Shown in pieces: positions 9,480 to 24,301 of a DNA stretch of 58,109 nt. The notes under the pieces are model-generated. The model had not been told where the DNA came from and ran no database searches. It was given only the letters and a program-made list of their open reading frames with translations. Location of the stretch: NCBI RefSeq assembly GCF_007625205.1, contig NZ_VMNI01000009.1, positions 1-58,109 on the forward strand. Reading direction: 5' to 3'. A program made the translations under genes and the position numbers. Source of the stretch: Denitromonas ohlonensis (lineage in GTDB: Bacteria; Pseudomonadota; Gammaproteobacteria; Burkholderiales; Rhodocyclaceae). Within the stretch, counting starts at the first letter, position 1; each line of letters opens with the position of its first letter.

Positions 9480-10487
9480 ATGCGCAAACATGTAATCGCG
9501 ATCGCAGCAGCTGCAGTCCTGGCAGGCCAAATCGGTGTCGCTCAAGCCGAAGGCGCGTGCGATGACGGTGAGGTGGTCATCAAGTTCGCCCACGTGACCA
9601 ACACCGACAAGCACCCGAAGGGGATCGCTGCGGAGTTGCTGGCCAAGCGGGTCAACGAAGAAATGAACGGCAAGGCCTGCATGCAGGTGTATCCGAACTC
9701 CAGCCTGTACAACGACGACAAGGTGCTCGAAGCGATGCTCAGCGGCGACGTGCAGCTGGCTGCCCCGTCGCTGTCGAAGTTCGAGAAATTCACCAAGAAA
9801 TTCCGTCTCTTCGATCTGCCCTTCCTGTTCACCGATATTGATGCGGTTGATCGCTTCCAAAACTCGGCCGACGGCCAGAAGCTGAAGGAATCGATGAGCC
9901 GCCGTGGTCTGACGGGTCTGTCCTTCTGGCACAACGGCATGAAGCAGCTGTCGGCCAACAAGCCGCTGGTCACGCCGGAAGATGCCAAGGGTTTGAAGTT
10001 CCGCGTGCAAGCCTCTGACGTGCTGGTCGCTCAGTTCGAGCAACTCGGTGCCAACCCGCAGAAAATGGCCTTCAGCGAAGTGTACGGCGCGCTGCAGACC
10101 AAGACCATCGACGGCTGCGAGAACCCCTGGTCCAACATCTACGGCCAGAAGTTCTTCGAAGTTCAGGACGGCATTACCGAAACCAACCACGGCGTGCTGG
10201 ACTACCTGGTTGTCACCTCGACCGAATGGCTCAAGAGCCAGAAGCCGGAAGTGCGTGACCAGTTCCTGAAGATCCTCGGCGAAGTCACCACCGAGCGTAA
10301 CGCCGCCGTCAAGAAAGTCGACGAAGACAACCGCCAGAAAGTCATCGAAGCCGGTTCGACCGTGCGTACGCTGACTGCTGAACAGCGCCAGGCGTGGGTC
10401 GAGGCGATGAAGCCGGTGTGGAAGAAGTTTGAGGGCGACATCGGGGCTGACCTGATGGAAGCCGCTCAGAAGGCTAACAAGGGCTAA
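9480..10487 (+). CDS. dctP: TRAP transporter periplasmic binding protein, DctP family
   Basis: A 335-residue periplasmic solute receptor with a Sec signal peptide (MRKHVIAIAAAAVLAGQIGVAQA, split here as MRKHVIAIAAAAVLAGQ and IGVAQA). The DctP-family core follows: KFAHVTNTDKHPKG, LFDLPFLFTD, and EVYGALQTKTIDGCENPWSN. The last closely resembles C4-dicarboxylate receptors of the Rhodobacter DctP type, so succinate, fumarate or malate are the likely ligands. The ribosome site is GTGGAGGAG. It is the first gene of dctPQM, with 104 bp to dctQ, a gap often seen because the receptor is made in excess. Ligand assignment is by family resemblance only. Confidence 0.9.
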   Translation: MRKHVIAIAAAAVLAGQIGVAQAEGACDDGEVVIKFAHVTNTDKHPKGIAAELLAKRVNEEMNGKACMQVYPNSSLYNDDKVLEAMLSGDVQLAAPSLSKFEKFTKKFRLFDLPFLFTDIDAVDRFQNSADGQKLKESMSRRGLTGLSFWHNGMKQLSANKPLVTPEDAKGLKFRVQASDVLVAQFEQLGANPQKMAFSEVYGALQTKTIDGCENPWSNIYGQKFFEVQDGITETNHGVLDYLVVTSTEWLKSQKPEVRDQFLKILGEVTTERNAAVKKVDEDNRQKVIEAGSTVRTLTAEQRQAWVEAMKPVWKKFEGDIGADLMEAAQKANKG

Positions 10488-10591
10488 GCCCGTGGGGCGC
10501 GAGGGCGTCCCATCTGCGCCATCCGTATGCGCGGCGAGCCTGGCTCCCCGCGCATATTTTTGGCCCAACCTTTGATAAAACGGAGAGGGAG

Positions 10592-11281
10592 ATGACTGGA
10601 GAACCGAGCCGATTTTCCCAGGCAGTGGAAAGCGCTGAAGAGACATTCATCGCGGTCACTCTGGGATTCATGACGCTGATCACGTTCGCCAACGTGGTTG
10701 CGCGCTATGTCTTCAACAGCAATATTTTGTGGGGGCTGGAAGTCACGGTCGTCCTGTTCGCCTGGCTGGTGCTCGTCGGCGCCGCCTACGGCGTCAAACG
10801 CACATTCCACATCGGCGTGGATGTCATCATCAACCTGCTGCCTCCGCCGGTGAAAAAGGTGTTTGCCTTGCTGGCCGTCGGCGCGAGCCTGCTCTTCGCC
10901 GTGCTGCTGCTCAAAGGCGCTTGGGAATACTGGTATCCGTTTGCCTCCGACCGTATCTGGATGGAAACCGACGATATCCCGATGCCGGGTTTCCTGGCCT
11001 GGATTGGCCCGATCATCAACGAGGGCGAAGCTTACGAGAAGATGCCGCGATTCGTGCCCTACTTCGCACTGCCGCTGGGCATGGCCCTGTTGGTGCTGCG
11101 TTTGCTGCAGGCGGGCTATCACGTACTGACCAATCAGCGTGACTCGATCATTGCCGCGCACGAAGTTGAAGACATGATCGAAGACGCGGTGGATGCCCAC
11201 GCAGACGGTCACCATCACAACTCGGACCGCGCCATCGCCAAGATGAATGCGGGCGCTCAGACCAACAAAAAGGAGCACTGA
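10592..11281 (+). CDS. dctQ: TRAP transporter small membrane subunit, DctQ
   Basis: A 229-residue integral membrane protein with four predicted hydrophobic segments (about residues 20-45, 50-70, 90-110 and 155-175). It contains the conserved WGLEVTVVLFAWLVLVGAAY region of DctQ proteins. Longer than the typical ~170-residue DctQ, it has a hydrophilic loop between TM3 and TM4 and a cytoplasmic C-terminal tail containing HADGHHHN. It partners DctM in the inner membrane. The ribosome site GGAGAGGGAG precedes the ATG, and its stop is 3 bp before dctM. Confidence 0.9.
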   Translation: MTGEPSRFSQAVESAEETFIAVTLGFMTLITFANVVARYVFNSNILWGLEVTVVLFAWLVLVGAAYGVKRTFHIGVDVIINLLPPPVKKVFALLAVGASLLFAVLLLKGAWEYWYPFASDRIWMETDDIPMPGFLAWIGPIINEGEAYEKMPRFVPYFALPLGMALLVLRLLQAGYHVLTNQRDSIIAAHEVEDMIEDAVDAHADGHHHNSDRAIAKMNAGAQTNKKEH

Positions 11282-11284
11282 CCG

Positions 11285-12646
11285 ATGGATCTCGCAATTC
11301 TCTTCGGCATGGTCATCGGCTTCATGCTGATCGGCGTGCCCATCGCCATCTCGCTCGGTCTGTCGAGCATTCTGTTCCTGATGTTTCACTCAGACGCCTC
11401 GCTCGGCTCGGTGGCGCAAACGCTCTTCACCACGTTTGACGGCCACTACACGCTGCTGGCGATCCCGTTCTTCATCCTCGCCTCGAGCTTCATGTCGACG
11501 GGTGGGGTGGCAAACCGCATCATCCGCTTCGCCATCGCCATGGTCGGCTCGATTCGTGGCGGTCTGGGCATCGCATCGGTGGTCGCTTGCATGATGTTCG
11601 CCGCGCTGTCGGGCTCCTCGCCTGCCACCGTGGTCGCCATCGGCTCGATCGTCATCGCAGGCATGGTGCAGGCGGGTTACAAAAAGGAGTTTGCCGCAGG
11701 TTTGATCTGTAACGCGGGCACGCTGGGCATTCTGATTCCGCCGTCGATCGTGATGGTGGTCTATTCCGCCGCCACCGACGTGTCGGTTGGCCGAATGTTC
11801 CTCGCGGGCGTCGTTCCGGGCTTGCTCGCCGGCTTCATGCTGATCATCGCGATCTACATTGCGGCGCGCATCAAGAACCTGCCCAAACAGCCCTTCCCCG
11901 GCTGGGGCGAGGTGTTTACAGCAGCGCGCGACGCCGGTTGGGGCCTGTTCCTGATCGTGATCATTCTTGGCGGTATCTACGGCGGCATCTTCACACCGAC
12001 CGAAGCGGCTGCGGTAGCAGCAATCTACGCCTTCCTGATCGCCAACTATGTCTACCGCGACATGGGGCCGTTTGCAGATGAAAACAACCATCGCAATCCG
12101 CTGTTCAAAGTGCTGGAAGTGTTCTGGCACCAGGACACCAAGAAGACCCTGTTCGAAGCGGGCAAGCTGACCATCATGCTGATGTTCGTGATCGCCAACG
12201 CGATCATCCTGAAGCATGTGCTGACCGAGGAGCGCATCCCCCAGGCCATCACCGAGGCCATGCTCTCGGCCGGCTTTGGCCCGATTGCCTTCCTCATCGT
12301 GGTCAACATCATCCTGCTCATCGGCGGTCAGTTCATGGAGCCGTCGGGCCTGCTGATCATTGTGGCACCGCTGGTCTTCCCGATCGCCATCCAGTTGGGC
12401 ATCGACCCGATCCACCTGGGCATCATCATGGTGGTGAACATGGAAATCGGCATGATCACACCACCTGTTGGCCTGAACCTGTTCGTCACCGCGGGCGTCG
12501 CCCAGATGTCGGTGATGAACGTGGTCAAGGCGGCCCTGCCCTGGGTCGCGATCATGATGCTCTTCCTGATCATCGTCACCTACGTACCCTGGGTCTCGAC
12601 CTGGCTGCCGACGCTGATGATGGGCCCGGAAGTCATCATCCAGTAA
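11285..12646 (+). CDS. dctM: TRAP transporter large permease, DctM
   Basis: A 453-residue inner-membrane permease with about twelve hydrophobic segments. Family motifs are visible: SGSSPATVVAIGSI, GTLGILIPPSIVMVVY, GGIYGGIFTPTEAAAVAA, and GMITPPVGLNLFVTAGVA. It performs sodium-driven uptake of the solute delivered by DctP. At about residues 255-290 there is a longer hydrophilic insertion (RDMGPFADENNHRNP and following), which is within the variation of DctM proteins. It ends the operon and is followed by a strong terminator. Confidence 0.93.
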   Translation: MDLAILFGMVIGFMLIGVPIAISLGLSSILFLMFHSDASLGSVAQTLFTTFDGHYTLLAIPFFILASSFMSTGGVANRIIRFAIAMVGSIRGGLGIASVVACMMFAALSGSSPATVVAIGSIVIAGMVQAGYKKEFAAGLICNAGTLGILIPPSIVMVVYSAATDVSVGRMFLAGVVPGLLAGFMLIIAIYIAARIKNLPKQPFPGWGEVFTAARDAGWGLFLIVIILGGIYGGIFTPTEAAAVAAIYAFLIANYVYRDMGPFADENNHRNPLFKVLEVFWHQDTKKTLFEAGKLTIMLMFVIANAIILKHVLTEERIPQAITEAMLSAGFGPIAFLIVVNIILLIGGQFMEPSGLLIIVAPLVFPIAIQLGIDPIHLGIIMVVNMEIGMITPPVGLNLFVTAGVAQMSVMNVVKAALPWVAIMMLFLIIVTYVPWVSTWLPTLMMGPEVIIQ

Positions 12647-12821: not shown

Positions 12822-12850
12822 ATGCAAAACGCCCGGCACTGGCCGGGCGT
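12822..12850 (-). terminator. Rho-independent terminator of the aor-tup operon
   Basis: On the minus strand ACGCCCGGC / GCCGGGCGT with a 4-nt loop is followed by TTTTGCATT, 27 nt beyond the tupA stop. It would close the long minus-strand operon. Confidence 0.8.
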
Positions 12851-12876: not shown

Positions 12877-13692
12877 TTACTTCGCCTTGAGCGGGAAAAA
12901 CAGCTGTTCGCCGTGCAACTTGTAATCGGCGATAGCCTGATGTCCGGCATCGGAGGTGATCCAGTTGATGAAAGTCTCCGCCGCGGCCTTTTTGACATGC
13001 GGATGCTTCACCGGGTTGATCAGAATCACGCCGTAGGGGTTGTAGAGTGTCGGGTCACCCTGGAACAGAATCTTCAGATCCTGGCGGTTCTTGAAGTTGG
13101 CCCAGGAGCCGCGGTCGCTCAAGGTATAAGCCCCCACGCCCGCTGCCATATTGAGCGTCGCGCCCATGCCCGAGCCCGAGGCCTTGTACCAGGCCTGTCC
13201 TTCCGGATTCTTGCCCGCCGCTTTCCAGAAACGCATTTCCGCCGAGTGGGTGCCACTGCGGTCAGCGCGCGAAGCGAAGGCATTGCCGCTGTCAGCGATC
13301 TTGCCAAACGCATCGTCAGTACTCTTTGCGGCAGCAATGCCCGCAGGATCGGCCGCCGGACCAACCACGACGAAGTCGTTGTACATCACGTCCTTGCGAT
13401 ACGCCCCGAAGCCCTCGGCGACAAAGGCTTCTTCTTTGGCGCGGTCATGCACCAGCAGCGCGTCTGCGTCGCCGCGCTTGCCGACATCGAGCGCCTGACC
13501 GGTGCCCAGTGCAACGACCTTTACCTGAATGCCGGTGGCCTTCTCGAAGATCGGCAGAATGTAGCCGAACAAGCCCGAGTTTTCAGTGGACGTCGTCGAA
13601 GCCAACGTAATGGATTCGCCGGCCTGCACCGTCATGGCCGTCGCACTCAGAATCAGCGCTGGAAGCAGACGTTTCAAAAAGCCAGATGCCAT
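12877..13692 (-). CDS. tupA: Tungstate ABC transporter binding protein TupA
   Basis: A 271-residue periplasmic oxyanion receptor with a Sec signal peptide (ending VQAGES). The TTST motif in TLASTTSTENSGLF is characteristic of TupA-type tungstate receptors; ModA molybdate receptors differ here. Further conserved blocks are GTGQALDVGKRGDADALLVH, FASRADRSGTHSAE and YTLSDRGSW. It overlaps the end of tupC by 19 bp and is the last gene of the operon, whereas tup operons usually start with tupA. Context with a tungsten enzyme supports tungstate over molybdate, although some TupA relatives bind both. Confidence 0.9.
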   Translation of the reverse strand: MASGFLKRLLPALILSATAMTVQAGESITLASTTSTENSGLFGYILPIFEKATGIQVKVVALGTGQALDVGKRGDADALLVHDRAKEEAFVAEGFGAYRKDVMYNDFVVVGPAADPAGIAAAKSTDDAFGKIADSGNAFASRADRSGTHSAEMRFWKAAGKNPEGQAWYKASGSGMGATLNMAAGVGAYTLSDRGSWANFKNRQDLKILFQGDPTLYNPYGVILINPVKHPHVKKAAAETFINWITSDAGHQAIADYKLHGEQLFFPLKAK

Positions 13693-14393
13693 GGGAGTTC
13701 TCCTTGAATGAACTGCCGCGCCTCCACCGAGGACGGCTGGGAAAAGAAGCGACGCACCGACACATGTTCACGTACCCGGCCCCCGGCCAGAAACACGATG
13801 TCATCGGCCAGACGCGTCGCCTGACCGAGATTATGCGTTGTCATTAATATTTTTGTACCTTCCGTGCGGATCTGCCGCACGATGCGCTCCACCGCTTCGA
13901 CCGCCGAGGGGTCGAGACTGGAGGTCGGCTCATCCAGCAAAAGCAGGCGCGGCCGGGTCAGCCACACCCGGCCCAGCGCCAGACGTTGCTGCTCACCGCC
14001 CGACAATTGCCTGGCGTTATCGTTGGCCCGATCAGCCAGCCCGATCTGCTCGAGCATGGCCATTGCCGCCATGCGTCGCTCGCGTGCGCCGACCCCGCGC
14101 GGTACCAGCCCCAAGGCGATGTTGTCGATCACCGAACTGCGCAGCATGACCGGATGCTGGAAGACCATGCCGACCGCCAGCGGATCAAAGCTGCCGCCGC
14201 CCCAATCGATCACCCCTCCCGTGGACGGCAACAGACCGCAGATGGTCCGCAGCAGCACGCTCTTGCCCGCACCATTGGGCCCGAGCACCACGGTGATACC
14301 CTCGCCCGACAGGGTCAGATCCACCCCATCGAGGACAGCCCGACCATTGGGTCGAAACACCACATCACGAAGCCGCAACGGGAACAGGCTCAT
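13674..14393 (-). CDS. tupC: Tungstate ABC transporter ATPase TupC
   Basis: A 239-residue ABC ATPase with Walker A GPNGAGKS (residues ~38-45), signature LSGGEQQR, Walker B LLLLDEPTSSLDPSA and H-loop TTHNLGQA. It energises tungstate uptake with TupB in the inner membrane. It has no C-terminal MOP/TOBE molybdate-binding domain, as expected for TupC rather than ModC. It overlaps tupB by 4 bp (ATGA type) and tupA by 19 bp, indicating translational coupling. Confidence 0.9.
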   Translation of the reverse strand: MSLFPLRLRDVVFRPNGRAVLDGVDLTLSGEGITVVLGPNGAGKSVLLRTICGLLPSTGGVIDWGGGSFDPLAVGMVFQHPVMLRSSVIDNIALGLVPRGVGARERRMAAMAMLEQIGLADRANDNARQLSGGEQQRLALGRVWLTRPRLLLLDEPTSSLDPSAVEAVERIVRQIRTEGTKILMTTHNLGQATRLADDIVFLAGGRVREHVSVRRFFSQPSSVEARQFIQGELPWHLAF

Positions 14394-15094
14394 TCGAATC
14401 GACGCATCACCGAGGTGCGCAAGGCGAAGGCCCCGGCGTTGAGAAACAGGATCAGCGCCAGCAAAACCATGCCCAGCGCAATCGCCAGCGGGAGATCACC
14501 CTTGCTGGTTTCGAGCGCAATGGCGGTGGTCATGACGCGGGTACTGCGGTCGATATTGCCGCCGACGATCATCACCGCCCCCACTTCCGACATCGCGCGG
14601 CCCAGACCGGCCAGCACCGCCACCGATAGCGAAAACCGGCAATCGTGCAGCAGCACCCGCACTGTGTCGCGCCAGCCAAAGCGCAGCGCGGCCAGCTCTT
14701 CACGGTACTGCCGCCAAGTATCTTCGACCACTTGCCGGGCGATCGCCGCCATCAGCGGCACCACCAGCACCACCTGAGCAATCACCATGGCCGATGGCGT
14801 ATACAACAGGCCGAAGTCGCCCATTGGCCCGGAGCGCGACAACACGAGATAGACCACCACCCCCACGACCACCGAGGGCAGCCCCATGAAGCCGTTAACG
14901 ATGACGGCCGCCGTCTGCTTGCCGGGGAAGCTCCCAACGGCCAGGCACGCGCCCAGCGGCAGTCCGATAAACGTGCCGATCAAGACGGCCAGGCCGCTCA
15001 CCTGAAGTGAGAGCAGGACGATCTCGAACACGCGCGCGTCGAAGTCCCACAACAGCGAAAACGCGTCGGCAAACGCCTGTGAAAATCCGCCCAA
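14390..15094 (-). CDS. tupB: Tungstate ABC transporter permease TupB
   Basis: A 234-residue inner-membrane permease of the binding-protein-dependent type. It has about five to six hydrophobic segments and the EAA-like loop (around LGRAMSEVGAVMIVGGNID) that contacts the ATPase. FMGLPSVVVGVVVYLVLSRS is typical of TupB. Coupled by overlap to tupC and 6 bp downstream of aorE, so it belongs to the same transcript as the aldehyde oxidoreductase genes. Confidence 0.9.
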   Translation of the reverse strand: MGGFSQAFADAFSLLWDFDARVFEIVLLSLQVSGLAVLIGTFIGLPLGACLAVGSFPGKQTAAVIVNGFMGLPSVVVGVVVYLVLSRSGPMGDFGLLYTPSAMVIAQVVLVVPLMAAIARQVVEDTWRQYREELAALRFGWRDTVRVLLHDCRFSLSVAVLAGLGRAMSEVGAVMIVGGNIDRSTRVMTTAIALETSKGDLPLAIALGMVLLALILFLNAGAFALRTSVMRRFE

Positions 15095-15100
15095 AGCGCC

Positions 15101-15406
15101 TCAGCCTCCGCCGCGTTGCATGGCGCGATCCAGCCGCGCGATCAGGGCCGCGCGCGCCGGCAATTCGCCCGCCAAAAACTCAAATCGGGTCGCCAGCACC
15201 GGCAACGCAAACAGACCGATCCGCCGTGCCGACTGCGGTACCGCGGTGATCTCCAGGCGCACCTCGCCCGCGCTCACGCGAAAGCGCCCCGCTCCCAGCG
15301 ACTCGACGCCGCCGGGCAATGCCGCATGCAGACTCCGCTCAAACTCCTGCGCGCTGGCCCCGACTTCGCGCGAGAATGTCTCCAGTGACGGGGGGGTAAA
15401 CGCCAA
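15101..15406 (-). CDS. aorE: Small conserved protein of the AOR operon (AorE-like), function unknown
   Basis: A 101-residue soluble protein with no signal peptide, no cysteine and no motif I recognise. Residues ~40-75 alternate hydrophobic and charged residues and look beta-rich (RFRVSAGEVRLEITAVPQSA). The C-terminus is DRAMQRGGG, so like the preceding MoaD-like protein it ends in a di-glycine, possibly by chance. It starts 2 bp after aorD and is 6 bp before tupB, so it is embedded between the enzyme and the metal importer. Small unassigned proteins are found at this place in Aromatoleum-type aor operons. A role in cofactor or tungsten handling is a guess from position. Confidence 0.75.
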   Translation of the reverse strand: MAFTPPSLETFSREVGASAQEFERSLHAALPGGVESLGAGRFRVSAGEVRLEITAVPQSARRIGLFALPVLATRFEFLAGELPARAALIARLDRAMQRGGG

Positions 15407-15408
15407 GA

Positions 15409-15660
15409 TCAGCCTCCGGCCACTGGCGGCCAGATGGCCAGTTCATCGTTTTCTTCCAGCACATGGCTCGCCCGCGCGGCCGGTGGAATGAAACGCCCAT
15501 TGACCAGCACCAGATGCGCGCTTTTTTCAGGCACCCGGTACTGATCAATGACCGTCTGAATCGTGGTGCCTGCCGGCAGATCCAGATCGACGATATTGCC
15601 TTTTCGATCGGCCGGCAGGTAATCGGTCAATGACGCAAACAACTTGAACTTCAGCTTCAT
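15409..15660 (-). CDS. aorD: MoaD/ThiS-like sulfur-carrier protein of the AOR operon
   Basis: An 83-residue beta-grasp protein with the C-terminal PPVAGG tail needed for adenylation and thiocarboxylation in MoaD/ThiS proteins. LVNGRFIPPAARASHVLEEN matches the family core. It overlaps aorC by 4 bp (ATGA). In tungsten and molybdenum enzymes the pterin dithiolene sulfurs come from a MoaD thiocarboxylate, so this may be a dedicated MoaD paralogue for AOR cofactor assembly. ThiS is the alternative, but no thiamine gene is near. Confidence 0.85.
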   Translation of the reverse strand: MKLKFKLFASLTDYLPADRKGNIVDLDLPAGTTIQTVIDQYRVPEKSAHLVLVNGRFIPPAARASHVLEENDELAIWPPVAGG

Positions 15661-16925
15661 GCCACCGCTCGATTCAAGGCGGTGGATTGCGTCACCGCCA
15701 CGTAGGCCTCAAAGAACGCGTGTGGATTGTGAAGCAGGCGCTCTTTCCAGAGCCCGAGATGCAGCTGCCCCTGGATCAACCCCCGCAGCGCCCCCACGTG
15801 ATCGGTAAGCCCGATGGCGGTCGCACCAATCAGCACATCGTCCTTGAACTGCAGGCTGATGTAGCGATACCCCGCCTCGTCGCATTGCTCGACGCTCTGC
15901 CCGTCCTTGTCGCCCCACCATTGACCGAAAGACGTCGAGATCAGTCCGAGCGTGTCGAGCACGTTGATGGCTAAAACGCCCGGCAGCTGCGCCTCACCGC
16001 CCGCCATGTTGATCGCGGCAATGCGTGCCTGGTCGGCCGCATTGGGCTGGATGGCCGACACCAGATGCGCACCGGTAAACAGATCCGGCGCCTCGGCCAC
16101 GTCCCCGGCCGCGTAGATGCCCGGCACCGACGTTTCCATGCGCGAATCGACGATCACGCCCTTGGCCACGTGCACCCCGGTCGCTTCCAGAAAGCCGACA
16201 TTCGGCGCCACGCCGGCGGCGACAATCACCACGTCGCAAGGCAGATGCTCGCCAGTGGACAGCTGCACATTCAGGGGTGCATCGCCGGTGCCGGTGTCGA
16301 TACGCTCAACGCCCGCCGAGGTGCGAACGGCGATGCCCTTGGATTCCACCCAGCGCTTGATCATGCCGCCAGCGGTCGGGGTCATCATGCGCGGCACCAT
16401 GCGGTCACCCATTTCGACCACGGTCAGTTCCACGCCCCGTTTGGCCAACGCTTCCATGATGATGCAGCCGATGAAACCCGCGCCGAGCTGCAGCACCCGG
16501 CTGCCGGGCTTGGTCAGCGCGGCGATGGCGCGCGCGTCTTCAAGCGTCCAGCAAGTCTGGGTTTGCGGGCGGTCAATGCCGGGGATGGGCGGACGCACGG
16601 GGTGCGATCCGGTGGCGATCAGCAGGCGATCGTAGTCTTCGTGGCTGCCGTCGTGAAACAACACGCGCTGTTGCTCACGGTCGACCGACACCGCACGGCC
16701 CGGCTTCAAGCGAATGCCCAGCGATTCGAAATGCCCGGTGCGTTTGCGCAGGTAGGTGCCGGACTCGTTGATGTTACCTTCGAGCAGATACGGGATGGCC
16801 ATGCGCGAATACGGCGGCGCGTCTTCACTGCCAGCCATCACGATCTGGCCAGCCGGATCGGCCTGGCGCAGGGTTTCAGCGGCAATCACCCCGGTGGGTC
16901 CATTGCCCAGAATCAGATATTTCAT
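15657..16925 (-). CDS. aorC: AOR FAD/NAD(P)-binding subunit AorC
   Basis: A 422-residue pyridine nucleotide-disulfide oxidoreductase-fold protein. The N-terminal FAD motif is ILGNGPTGVIAAE, a second Rossmann motif LQLGAGFIGCIIMEAL is at about residue 147 for NAD(P)H, and GIYAAGDVAEAP is the second FAD contact. It lacks a CxxxxC redox disulfide. In Aromatoleum AOR the flavin subunit passes electrons between the Fe-S subunits and NAD+. It lies 114 bp after aorB; that gap holds a perfect hairpin, then an AAGGAG-like site. Nitrite reductase or rubredoxin reductase-like flavoproteins share the fold, and the operon decides the role. Confidence 0.88.
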   Translation of the reverse strand: MKYLILGNGPTGVIAAETLRQADPAGQIVMAGSEDAPPYSRMAIPYLLEGNINESGTYLRKRTGHFESLGIRLKPGRAVSVDREQQRVLFHDGSHEDYDRLLIATGSHPVRPPIPGIDRPQTQTCWTLEDARAIAALTKPGSRVLQLGAGFIGCIIMEALAKRGVELTVVEMGDRMVPRMMTPTAGGMIKRWVESKGIAVRTSAGVERIDTGTGDAPLNVQLSTGEHLPCDVVIVAAGVAPNVGFLEATGVHVAKGVIVDSRMETSVPGIYAAGDVAEAPDLFTGAHLVSAIQPNAADQARIAAINMAGGEAQLPGVLAINVLDTLGLISTSFGQWWGDKDGQSVEQCDEAGYRYISLQFKDDVLIGATAIGLTDHVGALRGLIQGQLHLGLWKERLLHNPHAFFEAYVAVTQSTALNRAVA

Positions 16926-16993
16926 GAAGAACTCCTCATACGCAGGATCGGCCCGCCCGCCCCAAAGGCAAGACGAGCCGACAGCAAGCGGAA

Positions 16994-17019
16994 CCGGTCG
17001 CGGCCTTCACCGCGACCGG
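16994..17019 (-). repeat. Perfect intra-operon hairpin between aorB and aorC
   Basis: CCGGTCGCGG / CCGCGACCGG, a 10-bp perfect GC-rich stem with a 6-nt loop, lies 20 nt after the aorB stop. No T-run follows it on the minus strand, so it is not an ordinary terminator. It could protect the 3' end of an aorAB message or set subunit ratios. Confidence 0.7.
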
Positions 17020-17039
17020 CACTCAGGTCAAGACAGGAA

Positions 17040-18887
17040 TCAGAGCCCGAGTCGGCCGGCTGTTTCCTCGGTGACCACGCCGTCCGGCGTCCAGCCGCGT
17101 ATCTGGTAATACTCCGGAATCATCTTGTCGATGCCGCTCACCAAGCCCTTGGCCGGGCCCGTCTGGGCAGGCTCGGTCTTCAAGCGTGGCGGCAAGTCGT
17201 CATCCTTGCGGGTGAAACCTGCGGCCGTGTTGAACTGCCGCTCCATGTTCCAGATGCGCTCACCAACCAGGTTGAGTTTCTCCATGGACCAATCACCGTC
17301 GCAGGCCGCCTGCAGCTGCGGTTGCACATCGGCCAGTGTCCAGGCAAAAGACGTGAACACGCAGATGCCCGCCGAGTCGAAGATCGCCGTCGCGTCCTGG
17401 AACGCCTTGACCAACTCCGGTTTGCCTTCGGTAACGAGCGGATCGGTCTTGACCGGAATGCCCAGCACCTCGGAGGCCACGGTGTAGCTGCGCAAATGGC
17501 AGGCACCGCGATTGGAGGTGGCGTAAGTCAGACCCATACCCTGGATGCCGCGCGCGTCATAGGCCGGAAACTCCTGCCCTTTGACCGTCATCGACAGCTC
17601 GGGGTGGCCGTATTTTTCGCACAGCCGCTTGGAGCCCTGGCCGATTTCCACGCCAAAGCCTTCACCCAGCGCGGTCATCTCGGTGAACCGTGCCAGCGCC
17701 TCCGCCGAACCAAAAGGCGCGTCGACGCCGATCTGCTCATTGGTCAGCACGCCCATTTCGTAGAGCTCCATTACCGCACCGACGGTGGCGCCGAAGGAGA
17801 TCGGGTCCATACCTTGCTCGTTGCAAAGCAGGTTGGCGTACTGCAAGGCTTCGATATCGCCCACGCCGTTGGCGGCACCCAGCGCCCAGGCGGCTTCGTA
17901 CTCCAGACCGCCCGACGCGCCCCAGTATTCGGGCTTGTTGACGACAGTGAAATGGCCCTTGTCGATCTCGGATATCCGCCCGCAGGCGATGGTGCACCCG
18001 AAACAGGCTGCATTGGTCACCAGTTGCGACTTGCCGTCCGACGCACGCTTCTCGTGCATGGCTTCGGCCGAAATCTTGGCTGCATCCTCAAACTGCACAT
18101 CTTTGTGGTTGCGCGTCGGTAGCGAGCCCATCTCGTTGATCACGTTCATCAACACCTGGGTTCCGTACTTGGGCAGGCCCTCGCCCGTCACCGCGTTGTC
18201 GGCGAGTACTTTCTTGGCCGCGGTGGTTGCGGCCATGAAACCCTTGAAGTCCTTGATGCCGCCAACACCCTTCGTGCCGCGCAACGCCACGGCTTTCAGG
18301 TTCTTGGAGCCCATCACCGCGCCCACGCCGGAGCGGCCGGCGGCCCGGTGCAGATCATTGACCACACAGGCATACAGCACTTGATTTTCGCCCGCCCGGC
18401 CAATCGAGGACACGCGGATCTGCGGGTCCTGATGCTGCTTCTTGATGGTCTCTTCGGTTTCCCAGCAGGACTTGCCCCACAAACCGCTGGCATCGCGCAG
18501 CTCGGCCCGGTCATTTTCGACGTACAAATACACCGGTTTTGGCGACTTGCCCTCAAAGATGATCATGTCCCAGCCGGCGAACTTCATTTCGGCGCCAAAG
18601 AAGCCACCGGAGTTCGAACAGGCGATGGCGCCAGTGAGCGGCCCCTTGGTCACAATGGTGTAACGCCCGCCGGTCGATGCCATGGTGCCGGTCAAGGGAC
18701 CGGTGGACATGATCATTTTGTTGTCCGGCGATAAAGGATCGACCTTCGGGTCGATTTCGCTGATGAGATATTTGCTCGCCAACCCGCGTGAGCCGAGATA
18801 TTCGTCGGCCCACTGCATGTTCAGCGGCTCGGGGGTGCACGTGCCCTGAGTGAGGTTCACGCGCAGGATTTTTCTAGCCCAGCCCAT
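17040..18887 (-). CDS. aorB: Tungsten aldehyde:ferredoxin oxidoreductase catalytic subunit AorB
   Basis: A 615-residue AOR-family enzyme that oxidises aldehydes to acids at a tungsten bis-pterin centre. The N-terminal domain starts MGWARKILRVNLTQG and continues with GPLTGTMASTGGRYTIVTKG, GRAGENQVLYA and RSGVGAVMGSKNLKAVALRG, all typical of the family. The [4Fe-4S] ligands are CFGCTIAC with a fourth Cys in GICVFTSF near residue 500. The start was set at the ATG after GGAGGACGGAACC; the frame is open far upstream but that part is antisense to the ferredoxin gene. It lies 13 bp after aorA. Close similarity is to the Aromatoleum type rather than archaeal homodimers, as the added AorA and AorC subunits also indicate. 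Cytosolic. Confidence 0.93.
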   Translation of the reverse strand: MGWARKILRVNLTQGTCTPEPLNMQWADEYLGSRGLASKYLISEIDPKVDPLSPDNKMIMSTGPLTGTMASTGGRYTIVTKGPLTGAIACSNSGGFFGAEMKFAGWDMIIFEGKSPKPVYLYVENDRAELRDASGLWGKSCWETEETIKKQHQDPQIRVSSIGRAGENQVLYACVVNDLHRAAGRSGVGAVMGSKNLKAVALRGTKGVGGIKDFKGFMAATTAAKKVLADNAVTGEGLPKYGTQVLMNVINEMGSLPTRNHKDVQFEDAAKISAEAMHEKRASDGKSQLVTNAACFGCTIACGRISEIDKGHFTVVNKPEYWGASGGLEYEAAWALGAANGVGDIEALQYANLLCNEQGMDPISFGATVGAVMELYEMGVLTNEQIGVDAPFGSAEALARFTEMTALGEGFGVEIGQGSKRLCEKYGHPELSMTVKGQEFPAYDARGIQGMGLTYATSNRGACHLRSYTVASEVLGIPVKTDPLVTEGKPELVKAFQDATAIFDSAGICVFTSFAWTLADVQPQLQAACDGDWSMEKLNLVGERIWNMERQFNTAAGFTRKDDDLPPRLKTEPAQTGPAKGLVSGIDKMIPEYYQIRGWTPDGVVTEETAGRLGL

Positions 18888-18900
18888 GGTTCCGTCCTCC

Positions 18901-19377
18901 TCACGTTGCCGGCGTGGCAGTGTTGGCCTTGGCCGCCCACTGTCGCATCTTGTCGAGCCCGGTCCAGTCGGCGTCGATATACGTGATCGCGCTGGTCGGA
19001 CAGGCCGCAGCACAGGCCGGGTTGTCATCGCACAGGTCACATTTCTGGACCTTGCCCGAATCCTGCTCGTAGTTGATGGTGCCGAAGGGACAGGCGATGG
19101 TGCATACCTTGCACCCGACGCAGATATCCTCATGGACAACCTTGGCGCCCGTTGCCGCATCGAGCCGGATGGCATCAACCGGACAGGCGTTCATGCACCA
19201 GGCTTCGGCGCACTGGGTACAGGTGTAGGGCACCTTTTTGCCCTCTGCTTCGAAATTGAATACCTTGATCCGCGACTTGGACGGATTGAAGACCCCATGG
19301 TGCTCATACGAACAGGCCATCTCGCATTGCAGACAGCCCGTGCATTTGGCGGGGTCAATGTGAAGAGACTTCAACAT
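18901..19377 (-). CDS. aorA: AOR polyferredoxin-like subunit AorA
   Basis: A 158-residue HycB-like iron-sulfur protein with four cysteine motifs for four [4Fe-4S] clusters: CTGCLQCEMAC, CTQCAEAWCMNACP, CVGCKVCTIACP and CDLCDDNPACAAACP. It carries electrons between AorB and AorC. The start was set at ATG 19377, preceded by AGGAGGAG; the longer frame has no ribosome site. It is the first gene of the minus-strand operon and has a ~150-nt leader downstream of a sigma-70-like promoter. No Tat or Sec signal, so cytosolic. Confidence 0.92.
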   Translation of the reverse strand: MLKSLHIDPAKCTGCLQCEMACSYEHHGVFNPSKSRIKVFNFEAEGKKVPYTCTQCAEAWCMNACPVDAIRLDAATGAKVVHEDICVGCKVCTIACPFGTINYEQDSGKVQKCDLCDDNPACAAACPTSAITYIDADWTGLDKMRQWAAKANTATPAT

Positions 19378-19532
19378 CGGCCGACTCCTCCTGACAGGTT
19401 GAGATCGGGCGGGTGGTCTCTGGCGGACCAAACAATAATCCTCGCAGTGCAGTCAGCTGCGGGACATTCCTGCATGCGCCCGTTTATTATTCTCCCTCAC
19501 GCGCCTGCTCAGCACGACGCGATCGAATTCTC

Positions 19533-19560
19533 AGCATACGCCCACGGACTTGATTGTCAA
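19533..19560 (-). promoter_or_regulatory. Predicted sigma-70 promoter of the aor-tup operon
   Basis: On the minus strand a perfect TTGACA is separated by 16 bp from TATGCT. The expected start is near 19525, giving a leader of about 150 nt before aorA. The leader holds AATAAT/ATTATT arms around a GC-rich core that could fold. I could not match it to the Moco/Tuco riboswitch by eye. Confidence 0.55.
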
Positions 19561-19674: not shown

Positions 19675-20919
19675 ATGACACGCCCAACCGACGCCCCTGC
19701 TGCTGCGCGAACCGCGCTCGATGTTGAGGAAGCACGCGCACTCATCCATGCCGGGCTGGCGCCAGTACAAGGGTGGGAGCAAGTCGCCATCCGCGACGCA
19801 CTCGGCCGCGTCCTCGCCCAAGACGTTATTGCGCCGCACAATGTCCCCGCTCATGACAACTCCGCCATGGACGGCTACGCCATTCGTACCGACGACTGCC
19901 ACGCCGGCGCGTCGCTGAACATCGTCGGTACCGCCTTCGCGGGAAACGCCTTCTCCGGCATCGTCGGACCGGGTCAGGCGGTGCGCATCATGACCGGCGC
20001 GATGGTGCCGCGCGGCGCCGACTGTATCGTGCCACAAGAAGACGTCCAGGCCGACAAGACCAAGGTTCAGATTCCGGCCGGCCGCAAACCCGGCCAGAAT
20101 GTCCGCCGCGCCGGCGAAGACCTCGCCCTGGGCGAGCCGGCCCTGTCTGCCGGCAAGCGTATCGGCCCGGCCGAACTCGGCCTGATCGCCTCGCTGGGCA
20201 TTGCCGAAGTTCTCGTCTATCGCAGGCTGCGCGTCGCGTTTTTCTCGACCGGCGATGAAGTCGCCTCGATCGGCAAACCGCTCGCCCCCGGCCAGATCTA
20301 CGACAGCAACCGCTACACGCTCTATGGCGTACTGACCCGGCTCGGCTGCGACATCCTCGACATGGGGGTCATTCCCGACCGTCCCGAAGCGCTCGAAGCG
20401 GCCTTTCACGATGCGGCCACCGCCGCCGACGTGATCCTCACCTCCGGCGGTGTGTCGGTTGGCGAGGCGGACTTCATCAAGGAAATGGTCAATCGACTGG
20501 GCGAAGTCGCCTTCTGGAAGATAAACATCAAACCGGGCCGGCCGATGGCCTTTGGCAAGCTCGACACCACCTGGCTGTTCGGCCTGCCGGGCAACCCGGT
20601 CGCCGTGATGGTCACCTTCTACCAGTTTGTGCAGGACGCCCTGCTGGCGCTGATGGGCGTCAGCCCCCTGCCAACACGGCCCACGCTGGCCGCGCGCTGC
20701 ACCATCGAGATCCGCAAGCGCCCCGGCCGACGGGAATTCGTCCGGGCCATCGTCCGCGCGAGCGCCGATGGCTGGGAGGTATCGCCCACCGGTGCCCAGG
20801 GCTCCGGCGTGTTGCGCTCGATGTCAGATGCCAACTGCTTCATCGTGCTGCCCGAGTCCCGTGCCGATGTGGCCGCAGGTGACGCGGTCGACGTTCAGTT
20901 GTTCGACGGCCTGACCTGA
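19675..20919 (+). CDS. moeA: Molybdopterin molybdenumtransferase MoeA
   Basis: A 414-residue MoeA, which ligates the metal oxyanion to adenylated molybdopterin. Visible motifs: VPAHDNSAMDGYAIR, RIMTGAMVPRGADCIV, FFSTGDEVASIGKPL, IYDSNRYTLYGVL, ILTSGGVSVGEADF and KPGRPMAFGKL followed by LPGNPVAVMVTF. The usual four domains are present. The ribosome site before ATG 19675 is weak. The gene is divergent from a tungsten AOR-tungstate importer operon, which suggests this copy inserts tungsten. MoeA paralogues specialised for tungsten are known in AOR-containing microbes, but that specificity cannot be read from the sequence. Confidence 0.93.
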   Translation: MTRPTDAPAAARTALDVEEARALIHAGLAPVQGWEQVAIRDALGRVLAQDVIAPHNVPAHDNSAMDGYAIRTDDCHAGASLNIVGTAFAGNAFSGIVGPGQAVRIMTGAMVPRGADCIVPQEDVQADKTKVQIPAGRKPGQNVRRAGEDLALGEPALSAGKRIGPAELGLIASLGIAEVLVYRRLRVAFFSTGDEVASIGKPLAPGQIYDSNRYTLYGVLTRLGCDILDMGVIPDRPEALEAAFHDAATAADVILTSGGVSVGEADFIKEMVNRLGEVAFWKINIKPGRPMAFGKLDTTWLFGLPGNPVAVMVTFYQFVQDALLALMGVSPLPTRPTLAARCTIEIRKRPGRREFVRAIVRASADGWEVSPTGAQGSGVLRSMSDANCFIVLPESRADVAAGDAVDVQLFDGLT

Positions 20920-20981: not shown

Positions 20982-21527
20982 TCACTTCGCGCCGATCACG
21001 AGCTCGACCCGACGATTGCTTGCACGGCCTTCCCGCGAGCCGTTGTCAGCCACCGGCTCGTCTTCGCCACGCCCTTCTGAAGACAGGCGCTCCTCGGCGA
21101 CACCCCGCTCGATCAAAGCACGCGCCACCACGGCGGCGCGCGCCTCGGACAGCGTCTGATTGTAGGCGCCATCCCCGGCGCTGTCGGTATGCCCGACCAC
21201 CCGCGCATGCACCTGCGGCACCGTATTGAGTGCGCCGGCGAGACGATCAAGCGCATCGGCAGCGTCGGCATTCAATTCGCTGCGCCCCGACTTGAAGCTC
21301 ATCGCACCGGGCAGCGTCACGCGCAAGCCATCACCCAATGCTTCGACGCCAAGTCCGACATCTTTCAGCCCGTCCGCCTCCGCCGACAACAACTGCATGG
21401 GCGTCTTTCCGGGCTCAGCCCGCGGTGCGGCAGCCGGTGCTGCCGGCTCTCCGGACGACTGGGGGGCGGTTGCGCAAGCGGACAACAAACATGCGCTCAG
21501 CGCAATGGCGATCAAGGACGACTTCAT
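20982..21527 (-). CDS. OmpA-family outer-membrane lipoprotein
   Basis: A 181-residue lipoprotein with a signal peptide ending in the lipobox LLSAC, a low-complexity Ala/Pro linker (residues ~22-45) and a C-terminal OmpA/Pal peptidoglycan-binding domain. GHTDSAGDGAYNQTLSEAR and EGRGEDEPVADN hold the diaminopimelate-contacting Asp and Arg residues. The start was chosen at ATG 21527 after GAGGT; the longer frame adds no signal. It anchors the outer membrane to the wall. Pal itself is unlikely, since the tol genes are absent and the domain is preceded by an unusual extra segment. Confidence 0.85.
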   Translation of the reverse strand: MKSSLIAIALSACLLSACATAPQSSGEPAAPAAAPRAEPGKTPMQLLSAEADGLKDVGLGVEALGDGLRVTLPGAMSFKSGRSELNADAADALDRLAGALNTVPQVHARVVGHTDSAGDGAYNQTLSEARAAVVARALIERGVAEERLSSEGRGEDEPVADNGSREGRASNRRVELVIGAK

Positions 21528-21727
21528 GGAAAGAACCTCGTGACGAGTGAATATAGGGGTCCGCGCTTGCGACACCGGGGATTCAACAGCCCACGGCCAG
21601 CGCCTCCTGGAATACTCCAGCTGGGCTCGCATCATACACGCCAACAAATGTCATTTCCATATGACAAACAGTAATTTATCGCTATGCCAACGATCAGCGA
21701 AAGAGCGCCGCCCCGCCCGTGCGCAGA

Positions 21728-21805: not shown

Positions 21806-24043
21806 TCAGCCGCGCGTGGCAGCAAGCGCAGCGTTCAGCGTCGTGCTCGGGCGCATTACCGTCTTGGTCTTCTCGGCGTCGGCCATGTAATAGCCACCGA
21901 TATCGACCGGCTTGCCCTGCACGGCGCTGAGTTCGGCAAGAATCTTCGCCTCGTTGTCGGCCAGCGACTTGGCCAGCGGGGTGAAGTACGCTTTCAACTC
22001 GGCGTCTTCGTCCTGTGCCGCCAGGGCCTGCGCCCAGTACATGGCCAGGTAGAAGTGGCTGCCGCGGTTGTCGAGCTCGCCGGTCTTGCGCGATGGCGAT
22101 TTGTCGTTGTCGAGCAGCTTGCCCGTGGCTTCGTCCAGCGTCTTGGCGAGCAGCTTGGCCTTGGCGTTGCCTTCCTTGATGCCGAGGTCTTCAAGCGACA
22201 CGGCCAGCGCGAGGAACTCGCCGAGCGAGTCCCAACGCAGGTGGTTTTCTTCAACCAGCTGCTGCACGTGCTTGGGCGCGGAGCCGCCGGCACCGGTTTC
22301 GTACATGCCACCGCCAGCCATCAGCGGAACGATGGACAGCATCTTGGCCGAGGTGCCCAGTTCCATGATCGGGAACAGGTCGGTCAGATAGTCGCGCAGG
22401 ATGTTGCCGGTGACCGAAATGGTGTCCTGGCCGCGAACCACGCGCTCCAGGGTGTAACGCATGGCGCGCACTTGCGACATGTGCTGGATGTCGAGACCGG
22501 TGGTGTCGTGATCCTTCAGGTAGAGCTCGACCTTCTTGATCAGCTCGTTCTCGTGCGGACGGTAGGGGTCGAGCCAGAACACGGCCGGCATGCCGGAGTT
22601 GCGCGCGCGGGTGACGGCGAGTTTGACCCAGTCGCGGATCGGGGCGTCCTTGACCTGGCACATGCGCCAGATGTCGCCCTCTTCGACGTTCTGCGATAGC
22701 AGCACTTCGCCGGTGTCCAGATCGGTGATGTTGGCGACGCCGGCCTTGGGGATCTCGAAGGTCTTGTCGTGCGAGCCGTATTCCTCGGCCTTCTGCGCCA
22801 TCAGACCGACGTTGGGCACGGTGCCCATGGTCTTAGGATCGAAGTTGCCGTTGGTTTTGCAGAAGTTGATCATCTCCTGGTAGATACGGGCAAAGGTCGA
22901 CTCCGGCATCACGGCCTTGGCGTCTTTCTGGCGACCATCGGCACCCCACATCTTGCCGCCCGAGCGGATCATCGCCGGCATGGAGGCGTCAACGATGATG
23001 TCGTTGGGCGAGTGGAAGTTGGTGATGCCCTTGGCCGAATCGACCATCGCCAGTTCGGGGCGGTGCTCGTGGCAGGCGTGCAGGTCTTCGATGATCTCCT
23101 CGCGCTGCGAGCGCGGCAGATTGGCGATCTTGTCGTACAGGTTGACCATGCCGTTGTTGACGTTGACACCCAGCTCACGGAACAGCGCGGCGTGCTTCTT
23201 GAAGGCGTCCTTGTAGAAGATCCGGACGCAGTGGCCGAAGACGATGGGGTGCGACACCTTCATCATCGTCGCCTTCACGTGCAGCGAGAACATCACGCCG
23301 GACTGGCGCGCGTCTTCGATCTGCTCTTCGTAGAAGTCGCACAGCGCTTTCTTGCTCATGAACATCGAGTCGATGATCTCGCCGTCGAGCAACGCCACCT
23401 CGGGCTTGAGCACGATGGCTTCACCTTCCTTGGTGATCAGCTCCATCTTGACCTTACGCGCACGGTCGAGCGTCATCGACTTTTCGCCGTGGTAGAAGTC
23501 GCCATGCTTCATGTGTGAGACATGGGTACGCGAGGCCTGGCTCCACTTGCCCATCGAGTGCGGGTGTTTCTTGGCGTAGTTCTTGACGGCAGCCGGCGCA
23601 CGGCGGTCGGAGTTGCCTTCGCGCAGCACCGGGTTGACGGCGGAGCCCAGGCACTTGCCGTAACGGACCTTGATCGCTTTGTCTTCCTCGGTTTTCGGCG
23701 CTTCCGGGTAGTCAGGGATCGCGTAGCCCTTGGACTGCAATTCCTTGACGCAGGCCATCAGCTGCGACACCGAGGCGCTGATGTTCGGCAATTTGATGAT
23801 GTTGGTGTCCGGCTCCTGGGTCAGACGGCCCAGCTCGGCGAGCGTATCCGGCACCTTCTGCTCGTCGGTCAGGAATTCGGAGAATTCAGCCAGCACCCGC
23901 GCTGCCACCGAGATATCGCTCGTCGTCACGTCGATGCCAGCCGGCGCGGCGAACGTCCGGATAATCGGCAGCAGGGAGCACGTCGCCAACAAGGGCGCCT
24001 CATCGGTGAGGGTGTAGATGATCGTCGGACGCTTCGTAGTCAT
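21806..24043 (-). CDS. icd: NADP-dependent isocitrate dehydrogenase, monomeric type
   Basis: A 745-residue monomeric (class II) NADP-isocitrate dehydrogenase, the TCA enzyme making 2-oxoglutarate and NADPH. The N-terminus reads [20 protein letters not shown], and the family blocks [40 protein letters not shown] and [20 protein letters not shown] are intact. The length matches the ~740 residues usual for this type, unrelated to the ~415-residue dimeric enzyme. The start was set at the ATG after GGGAGAAATGC. The gene is monocistronic, with a long terminator. Its competitor for isocitrate, aceA, lies 10 kb away. Confidence 0.96.
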
Positions 24044-24301
24044 GCATTTCTCCCTTGTTTTATATCGTGGCGCAAAGCCAACCGGATACCGCAACCAGCC
24101 TAGTTTGCCCTAAGCGCTCCGTATTCGCATTCAGGCAAGTCAAGGCGAAGGCGTAATTATAATGCCGGATCCTTACGTCTCGCTGGCAATCATATAGATG
24201 ACTGACCGCCGGTTATCACTGGGGGCATTTTCTGCCAACCATGCACCAAAATGAAGCGGCGTTTGCCGTGCGGATCGACATCGGGCTTCGGCCCACTTCG
24301 C

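Follow-up and report, generated by a model that had tools for sequence, protein, structure and literature searches.

The window analysed here is a 58,109-nucleotide stretch of the Denitromonas ohlonensis genome (contig NZ_VMNI01000009.1, positions 1 to 58,109), and it carries a run of eight minus-strand open reading frames (ORFs), all present at 12877-19377, in the order aorA-aorB-aorC-aorD-aorE-tupB-tupC-tupA. These are predicted to encode a tungsten aldehyde oxidoreductase (AOR), two maturation helpers and a tungstate importer, and a gene for a metal insertase, moeA, diverges from them. From aorA to tupA the junction gaps, taken from the coordinates, are 13, 114, -4, 2, 6, -4 and -19 nt, the 114 nt between aorB and aorC (16926-17039) being the only long gap of the operon, and aorE and tupB start with TTG. 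A preliminary description of this DNA had proposed eight co-oriented genes with these identities and spacings, and both ORF coordinates and family matches agree with it; the co-location of the enzyme, a MoaD-like protein and a tungstate-type importer was likewise upheld by family and structure matches. That description did not mention the divergent moeA, the conserved end and possible kinship of AorE or the hairpin in the long gap, all treated below. The locus is a real and probably functional tungsten operon, the parts of which are ordinary while the number of them found together is uncommon. We consider it quite probable that it constitutes a self-contained tungsten set, made up of AorABC, its helpers AorD and AorE, the importer TupBCA and the divergent insertase MoeA.

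The three components of an AorABC enzyme are all recognisable, namely a large subunit of the AFOR family, an AorA with a C-terminal extension and an FAD/NAD subunit, AorC. AorB (17040..18887, minus strand), the predicted tungsten-pterin catalytic subunit, matched AFOR_N with 273.9 bits (cut-off 29.8) and AFOR_C with 455 bits (cut-off 27), and its best solved match was chain A of 8c0z, with 1219 bits over residues 1-615. AorA (18901..19377, minus strand) is a polyferredoxin-like subunit with Fer4 family matches whose residues 1-156 align without gaps to chain C of 8c0z, including the C-terminal helix region that forms the filament-mediating part of that structure, and AorC (15657..16925, minus strand; Pyr_redox_2) aligns over residues 1-414 to chain E with 689 bits, as the counterpart of the single filament cap in 8C0Z. 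AorB is 85% identical to an Aromatoleum toluclasticum protein, and among the named matches listed the closest were those of Zoogloeaceae bacterium G21618-S1 (99%) and Denitromonas iodatirespirans (95%). From these matches we infer an NAD-linked, three-subunit tungsten AOR of the Aromatoleum type, in which the metal is likely W rather than Mo. The genome encodes AOR, TupA and ModA once each and MoeA twice. In searches of wider sets, each of which contained the window's own genome, AorB turned up at E<=1e-20 in 22 of 200 genomes of the order, and at E<=1e-100 in 48 of 369 at the class level and 8 of 398 at the phylum level.

The two genes after aorC are predicted to encode helpers of the enzyme. 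AorD (15409..15660, minus strand) is a ThiS/MoaD-like sulfur-carrier protein ending in AGG, which scored 40.4 bits against Pfam ThiS (cut-off 22.5) and fell below the NCBIfam equivalog cut-offs for both moaD (23 vs 66.15 bits) and thiS (27.9 vs 37.45 bits); the AGG end was present in all 92 AorD sequences with a readable 3' end, 2 of the 94 relatives being cut by contig ends. AorE (15101..15406, minus strand), a small putative maturation factor ending in RGGG, matched no Pfam or NCBIfam family, and its R13 and C-terminal GGG were invariant in 58 of 58 distinct sequences (the window's included), a set gathered by similarity to the window protein from which distant forms may be missing. Its AlphaFold2 model had a mean predicted local distance difference test (pLDDT) score of 81.9, falling to 37 in the final block, and the first-ranked Foldseek match to this model was the MoaD-related protein 1v8c of Thermus thermophilus (E 7.3e-4, TM-score 0.57), followed by an unrelated SAD-kinase domain, 4yom (E 8.8e-4, TM-score 0.65). 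Because 4yom is so close in E-value, with a higher TM-score than 1v8c, fold alone cannot decide the kinship of AorE. At the sequence level, a profile of the AorE set gave a weak alignment (E 0.46) with the C-terminal end of 1v8c, the RGGG end included, and 3 of the 58 members, all other than the window AorE, matched Pfam DUF1952, the best with E 0.0021. We take DUF1952 to be the C-terminal domain of 1v8c, lying behind a MoaD-like domain. AorE is probably a stand-alone version of that C-terminal domain and a helper of AorD. In Table 1 of PMC9295118, recombinant Aromatoleum AOR had a specific activity of 4.5 U/mg when made from aorABC, 85 U/mg with aorDE and tungstate added, and 16 U/mg without added tungstate. 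The tungsten contents tabulated for these three preparations were 1.06, 1.52 and 0.39, so the effect of aorDE alone is not just one of more tungsten.

The importer genes follow as tupB (14390..15094, minus strand), which encodes a tungstate-type permease of the ATP-binding cassette (ABC) class above the NCBIfam ABC_perm1 cut-off, tupC (13674..14393, minus strand), an ABC ATPase gene (ABC_tran) placed between tupB and tupA, and tupA (12877..13692, minus strand), which encodes a predicted periplasmic tungstate-binding protein (PBP_like_2). The best solved matches of TupA were the TupA-type proteins 3lr1, 3muq, 5my5 and 3kn3. Seven of eight binding-site residues were identical (T10, T11, S12, H59, R118, T124 and D170) and T9 was replaced by Ser; these residues follow the numbering of the Desulfovibrio protein in PMC5517513 and were transferred through 5my5 with an offset of +23 that is our own mapping.

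The divergent moeA (19675..20919, plus strand), which starts 297 bp from aorA, encodes a protein with MoeA domains that scores above the NCBIfam MoeA cut-off. It has R289 and A310, spaced 21 residues apart in the same way as R291 and A312 of Methylorubrum extorquens MoeA1, which passages of PMC13197769 link to tungsten preference. The second MoeA of the genome has K and S at those positions; its gene is followed by a MoaD-like gene (336072-337521 of contig C2 in assembly G000), in what is apparently a separate molybdenum set. As controls we took 14 genomes of the same order in which no AOR was detected; 13 of them gave MoeA matches, at 18 loci in all, and at the six of these loci with at least 56% identity, the R was present in 6/6 and the A in 4/6. 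The occurrence of R and A in genomes without a detected AOR weakens these residues as proof of tungsten specificity. TupA, however, was found in 4 of the 6 control genomes with such a MoeA as against 0 of the other 8, with moeA and tupA about 3 kb apart in two of them, and because of this difference the data are suggestive, for a small sample, of a MoeA type that accompanies tungstate import and not AOR itself. The divergent MoeA is likely to be a tungsten-dedicated copy.

Upstream of aorA, a candidate promoter of the form TTGACA-16-TATGCT lies on the minus strand at 19533..19560 (TTGACA at 19560-19555, a spacer of 16 nt, and TATGCT at 19538-19533) and matches the consensus at 10 of 12 positions. 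By itself the match carries little weight, since a scan found 2 promoter-like sites where shuffled sequence yields 1.4. Footprinting supports it and with it the earlier proposal of a TTGACA promoter, in that all 8 loci of an alignment retain TTGACA, the 16-nt spacer and TATNCT while the flanks diverge. This alignment comprised the window and seven named loci in which a divergent moeA is close by; two others with such a gene upstream, L097 and L103, were left out. Transcription probably starts near 19525. An operator was sought in the same eight-locus alignment of the moeA-aorA intergenic region, and no conserved block beyond the promoter hexamers could be identified by eye. A search of the whole window against Rfam gave no match at the gathering threshold, so no known riboswitch of the molybdenum or tungsten cofactor (Moco/Tuco) type was detected.

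The preliminary description placed a single terminator at the end of the operon. By eye, a 7-bp G+C stem (12848-12831) followed by GTTTT makes a likely terminator after tupA (12826..12848, minus strand), yet it was not listed by a strict scan requiring at least 5 T, and the region folds only modestly better than shuffled sequence (z -1.75, 12 of 200 shuffles as good). The related proposal, that all eight genes share one transcript, is plausible. A strong internal terminator had been named as the finding that would speak against it, and the 114-nt gap between aorB and aorC contains a strong hairpin, although in the window this hairpin is not followed by a good T-run.

To place the arrangement among relatives, we surveyed the best 80 loci with an AorB relative, 56 of which are named and have at least 5 kb upstream and at least 9 kb downstream of aorB. 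Among the 56 well-flanked loci listed, tupB-tupC-tupA lay downstream on the same strand in 12, tupB and tupC without tupA in 10, another arrangement in 2, and no tup genes within the flank in 32. The loci with all three linked genes include Denitromonas, Zoogloea, Thauera and other Zoogloeaceae or Proteobacteria. Full linkage of aor to the importer, singled out earlier as the point meriting attention, is thus present but not rare, being shared by at least 12 of 56 well-flanked close relatives, and the position of tupA in last place, described as opposite to the usual tupABC order, is correct for the window but not exceptional, as all 12 linked loci have it and a moeA1-mobB-tupBCA cluster is reported from Methylorubrum extorquens (PMC13197769). 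Of 15 genomes without a linked tupA that were checked, 14 encode TupA elsewhere. In the 15 regions fetched, tupB-tupC-tupA-moeA stood together in two (Dechloromonas), tupA had neither window-type tupB nor tupC in the stretch in 11, and tupB and tupC were 2-3 kb away in two. At L146-L149, L151-L154 and L156-L158 (Thauera, Aromatoleum and Azoarcus-type), tupA is detached from the aor-linked tupB and tupC and lies elsewhere, with no tupB or tupC of the window type in the region retrieved. More distant relatives had tup genes in 3 of 40 class- or phylum-level regions, none of them downstream of aorE on the same strand, with several of these regions cut by contig ends. Two insertions were also seen, one of about 1.6 kb between aorD and aorE in Aromatoleum evansii, with a long ORF on the opposite strand (L085:8920-10344), and one of about 440 nt between aorE and tupB in Thauera propionica, which contains an ORF of at most 139 amino acids (L069:13724-14143). 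In open-access text, which excludes figures, supplements and subscription papers, we found no description of the aorABCDE-tupBCA arrangement or of the hairpin between aorB and aorC.

This hairpin, with a G+C-rich stem of 12 bp, lies about 20 nt after the aorB stop at approximately 16994-17021 and is followed further on by a second stem within the gap (16926..17039, minus strand). Folding of all 114 nt of the gap gives -57.6 kcal/mol (z -3.52), a value equalled by 0 of 200 shuffles. In the collected gaps at this junction the stem begins a median of 20 nt past the aorB stop, and perfect stems at p<=0.01 were found in 44 of 80 gaps of 40-160 nt with 200 shuffles. With 100 shuffles the count was 41 of 80, and it was 11 of 115 among the remaining gaps between same-strand genes of those regions. 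Folding at z<=-2 was reached by 62 of 87 aorB-aorC gaps of at least 40 nt and by 20 of 115 control gaps (Mann-Whitney p 3e-17, a value that ignores kinship among the related loci, L027 and L078 being apparently the same contig); counted by junction, again for gaps of at least 40 nt, 60 of 86 aorB-aorC gaps did so and 1 of 20 aorE-tupB gaps, which are of comparable length and come from the same loci. At the Thauera loci L072 and L075 the gap holds a 25-bp near-perfect stem with repeat-like sequence, possibly a repetitive element.

Covariation was assessed in three groups of loci picked by eye, comprising 6 of 8 (A2; without L052 and L053, which have their hairpins elsewhere), 12 of 15 (A3; without L056, L090 and L091) and 9 of 9 (A4), and three further groups with 11 loci were left out of the counts. 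The window's group had four pairs changed on both sides, a covariation score reached by 2 of 500 shuffles, although its further pair types were no better than shuffles (281 of 500). The Rhodocyclales-type group had five double-sided pair changes, and 0 of 500 shuffles reached its score.

Taken together, these data suggest a division of labour in which TupBCA would import tungstate, MoeA would insert it into the cofactor, AorD would supply the dithiolene sulfur with the assistance of AorE, and AorABC would oxidise aldehydes with NAD+. The hairpin after aorB may protect the upstream aorAB message or partly terminate transcription, and either effect would leave more AorA and AorB than AorC and downstream helpers. 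The attraction of this idea is that AorAB protomers repeat on a single AorC cap, and free AorAB is abundant, according to passages of PMC10413684, an excess that the hairpin may supply; the same passages describe the in vivo oligomerisation of the Aromatoleum filament as unknown. That the hairpin yields an excess of AorAB over AorC and the helpers, in keeping with the Aor(AB)nC composition of the filament, is a tentative inference to which we would give nearly an even chance. Its extension, by which the hairpin would act as a conserved dosage device, determine how long the electron-conducting Aor(AB)nC filament grows and, through its strength, tune that length between species, is possible but somewhat more doubtful.

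Several observations weigh against such a role for the hairpin. At the aorB-aorC junction itself, 25 of 87 gaps of at least 40 nt fail z<=-2, hairpins occur at other long junctions as well (aorC-aorD 6 of 13, aorA-aorB 2 of 4), and in the class- and phylum-level set 19 of 39 gaps are below 40 nt and too short, while 11 of the 20 longer ones reach z<=-2. The Dechloromonas-type group showed no double changes (250 of 500 shuffles as good), and 6 of its 13 pairs never vary. Filaments, moreover, do not appear to require the hairpin, because the AorA C-terminal tail of at least 24 residues was kept in 135 of 135 loci read, including those without the gap, and a strict link between the filament helix and the hairpin was accordingly not supported. 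An ordinary terminator or attenuator, with aorAB as one unit, aorCDE-tupBCA expressed by read-through or from a promoter of their own, and no role in subunit ratio, is a possible reading, though less likely than not. The median distance of the stems from the aorB stop is terminator-like, and at least 5 T fall within the 8 bases after 23 of 55 stems, so that the hairpin may be an attenuator and not a stabiliser in part of the set; the window stem, however, has only 4 T in its next 8 bases and was not listed by the terminator scan, the promoter scan found no promoter-like site in the gap, and spacing downstream is tight. This explanation differs mainly in mechanism from a dosage role, since partial termination would also give more AB than C. 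It is unlikely that the hairpin is functionless here, as a leftover or a chance product of a high-G+C spacer. In favour of such an origin are its absence from many relatives and the 20 of 115 control gaps that also fold at z<=-2; against it are a hairpin signal that exceeds both dinucleotide shuffles and control gaps of two kinds, and the covariation in two of three groups.

The tungsten set, too, has points against it. TupA and TupB score below their NCBIfam cut-offs (225 bits vs 400 and 169 bits vs 320), for which reason we call TupBCA a Tup-type importer and not a curated equivalog, and the genome encodes 9 molybdopterin-family proteins of PF00384, so that the importer may serve other enzymes. 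In the wider form of this argument, importer and MoeA would serve the molybdenum enzymes or other tungsten enzymes of the cell, and their place beside aor would be only historical, as might be expected from the 32 of 56 well-flanked aor loci listed without tup genes nearby and from the TupA in 4 of 14 same-order genomes chosen for their lack of an AOR match. We hold this to be improbable, because the only TupA of the genome lies in the aor operon, and a ModA and the second MoeA, beside its MoaD-like gene, are encoded elsewhere. That the enzyme carries Mo in vivo is very improbable indeed: a YdhV-like clade of the family prefers Mo according to passages of PMC13328260 and PMC12096430, but among solved structures the nearest relative, 8C0Z, is a tungsten enzyme, the tupA in the neighbourhood encodes a tungstate-type protein, and the Aromatoleum AOR is reported in passages of PMC6365974 and PMC9295118 to contain W, with Mo not detected.

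If the self-contained tungsten set is the right reading, one small locus holds tungsten import, metal insertion, the pterin sulfur carrier and the enzyme, and it may be a convenient cassette for producing an acid-reducing enzyme of biotechnological use. The separation of tupA from tupB and tupC in Thauera and Aromatoleum provides natural variants in which the importance of linkage could be examined. Through the hairpin, the question of how the AOR filament oligomerises in vivo becomes open to experiment; should the hairpin prove to be a dosage device, it would represent control of a protein nanowire at the level of mRNA.

Among the neighbouring genes, three plus-strand ORFs at 9480-12646 converge on the tupA end and by eye resemble a tripartite ATP-independent periplasmic (TRAP) transporter with a solute-binding, a small and a large membrane subunit. 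On the minus strand, the ORF at 20982-21647 by eye resembles an OmpA-type lipoprotein, and the one at 21806-24094 a monomeric isocitrate dehydrogenase.

The closest known system is AorABCDE of Aromatoleum aromaticum EbN1 (8C0Z), which has the same five products in the same order, with A, B and C aligning over nearly their full length and D and E as helpers. The passages available from the Aromatoleum AOR papers make no mention of tup genes, a divergent moeA or the aorB-aorC hairpin, and four Aromatoleum loci in our survey (L074, L081, L085 and L089) have tupB-tupC after aorE with tupA not within the flank. For the hairpin, the nearest parallels are operons with selective RNA processing and stabilisation, such as those of the cellulosome (PMC8219983, PMC4423207) and puf (PMC6238624), in which an intercistronic stem-loop lies between subunits needed unequally; the window likewise has a stable stem-loop between subunit genes, in this case recognised from sequence. 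The moeA1-mobB-tupBCA cluster of M. extorquens, as described in passages of PMC13197769, has its importer genes in the same order, tupB-tupC-tupA, and likewise encodes a MoeA carrying R and A, but it serves a W-formate dehydrogenase and aor genes are not mentioned in those passages, whereas the window has no mobB beside moeA. In Cetobacterium somerae, the tupABC-CsWOR41-moeA cluster (passages of PMC13328260) also places importer, tungsten oxidoreductase (WOR) and MoeA side by side, although its enzyme is an exported one of Class V and the gene order differs. The neighbourhoods described by Iyer et al. in 2006 (PMC1779556) bring together AOR, MoaD, a pyridine-disulfide oxidoreductase, a ferredoxin and MoeA, with no tungstate importer mentioned in the passages on transporters, tungstate or molybdate. 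The clustering of WOR, Tup and MoeA is therefore already known, and neighbourhoods of AOR, MoaD and MoeA have been known since 2006.

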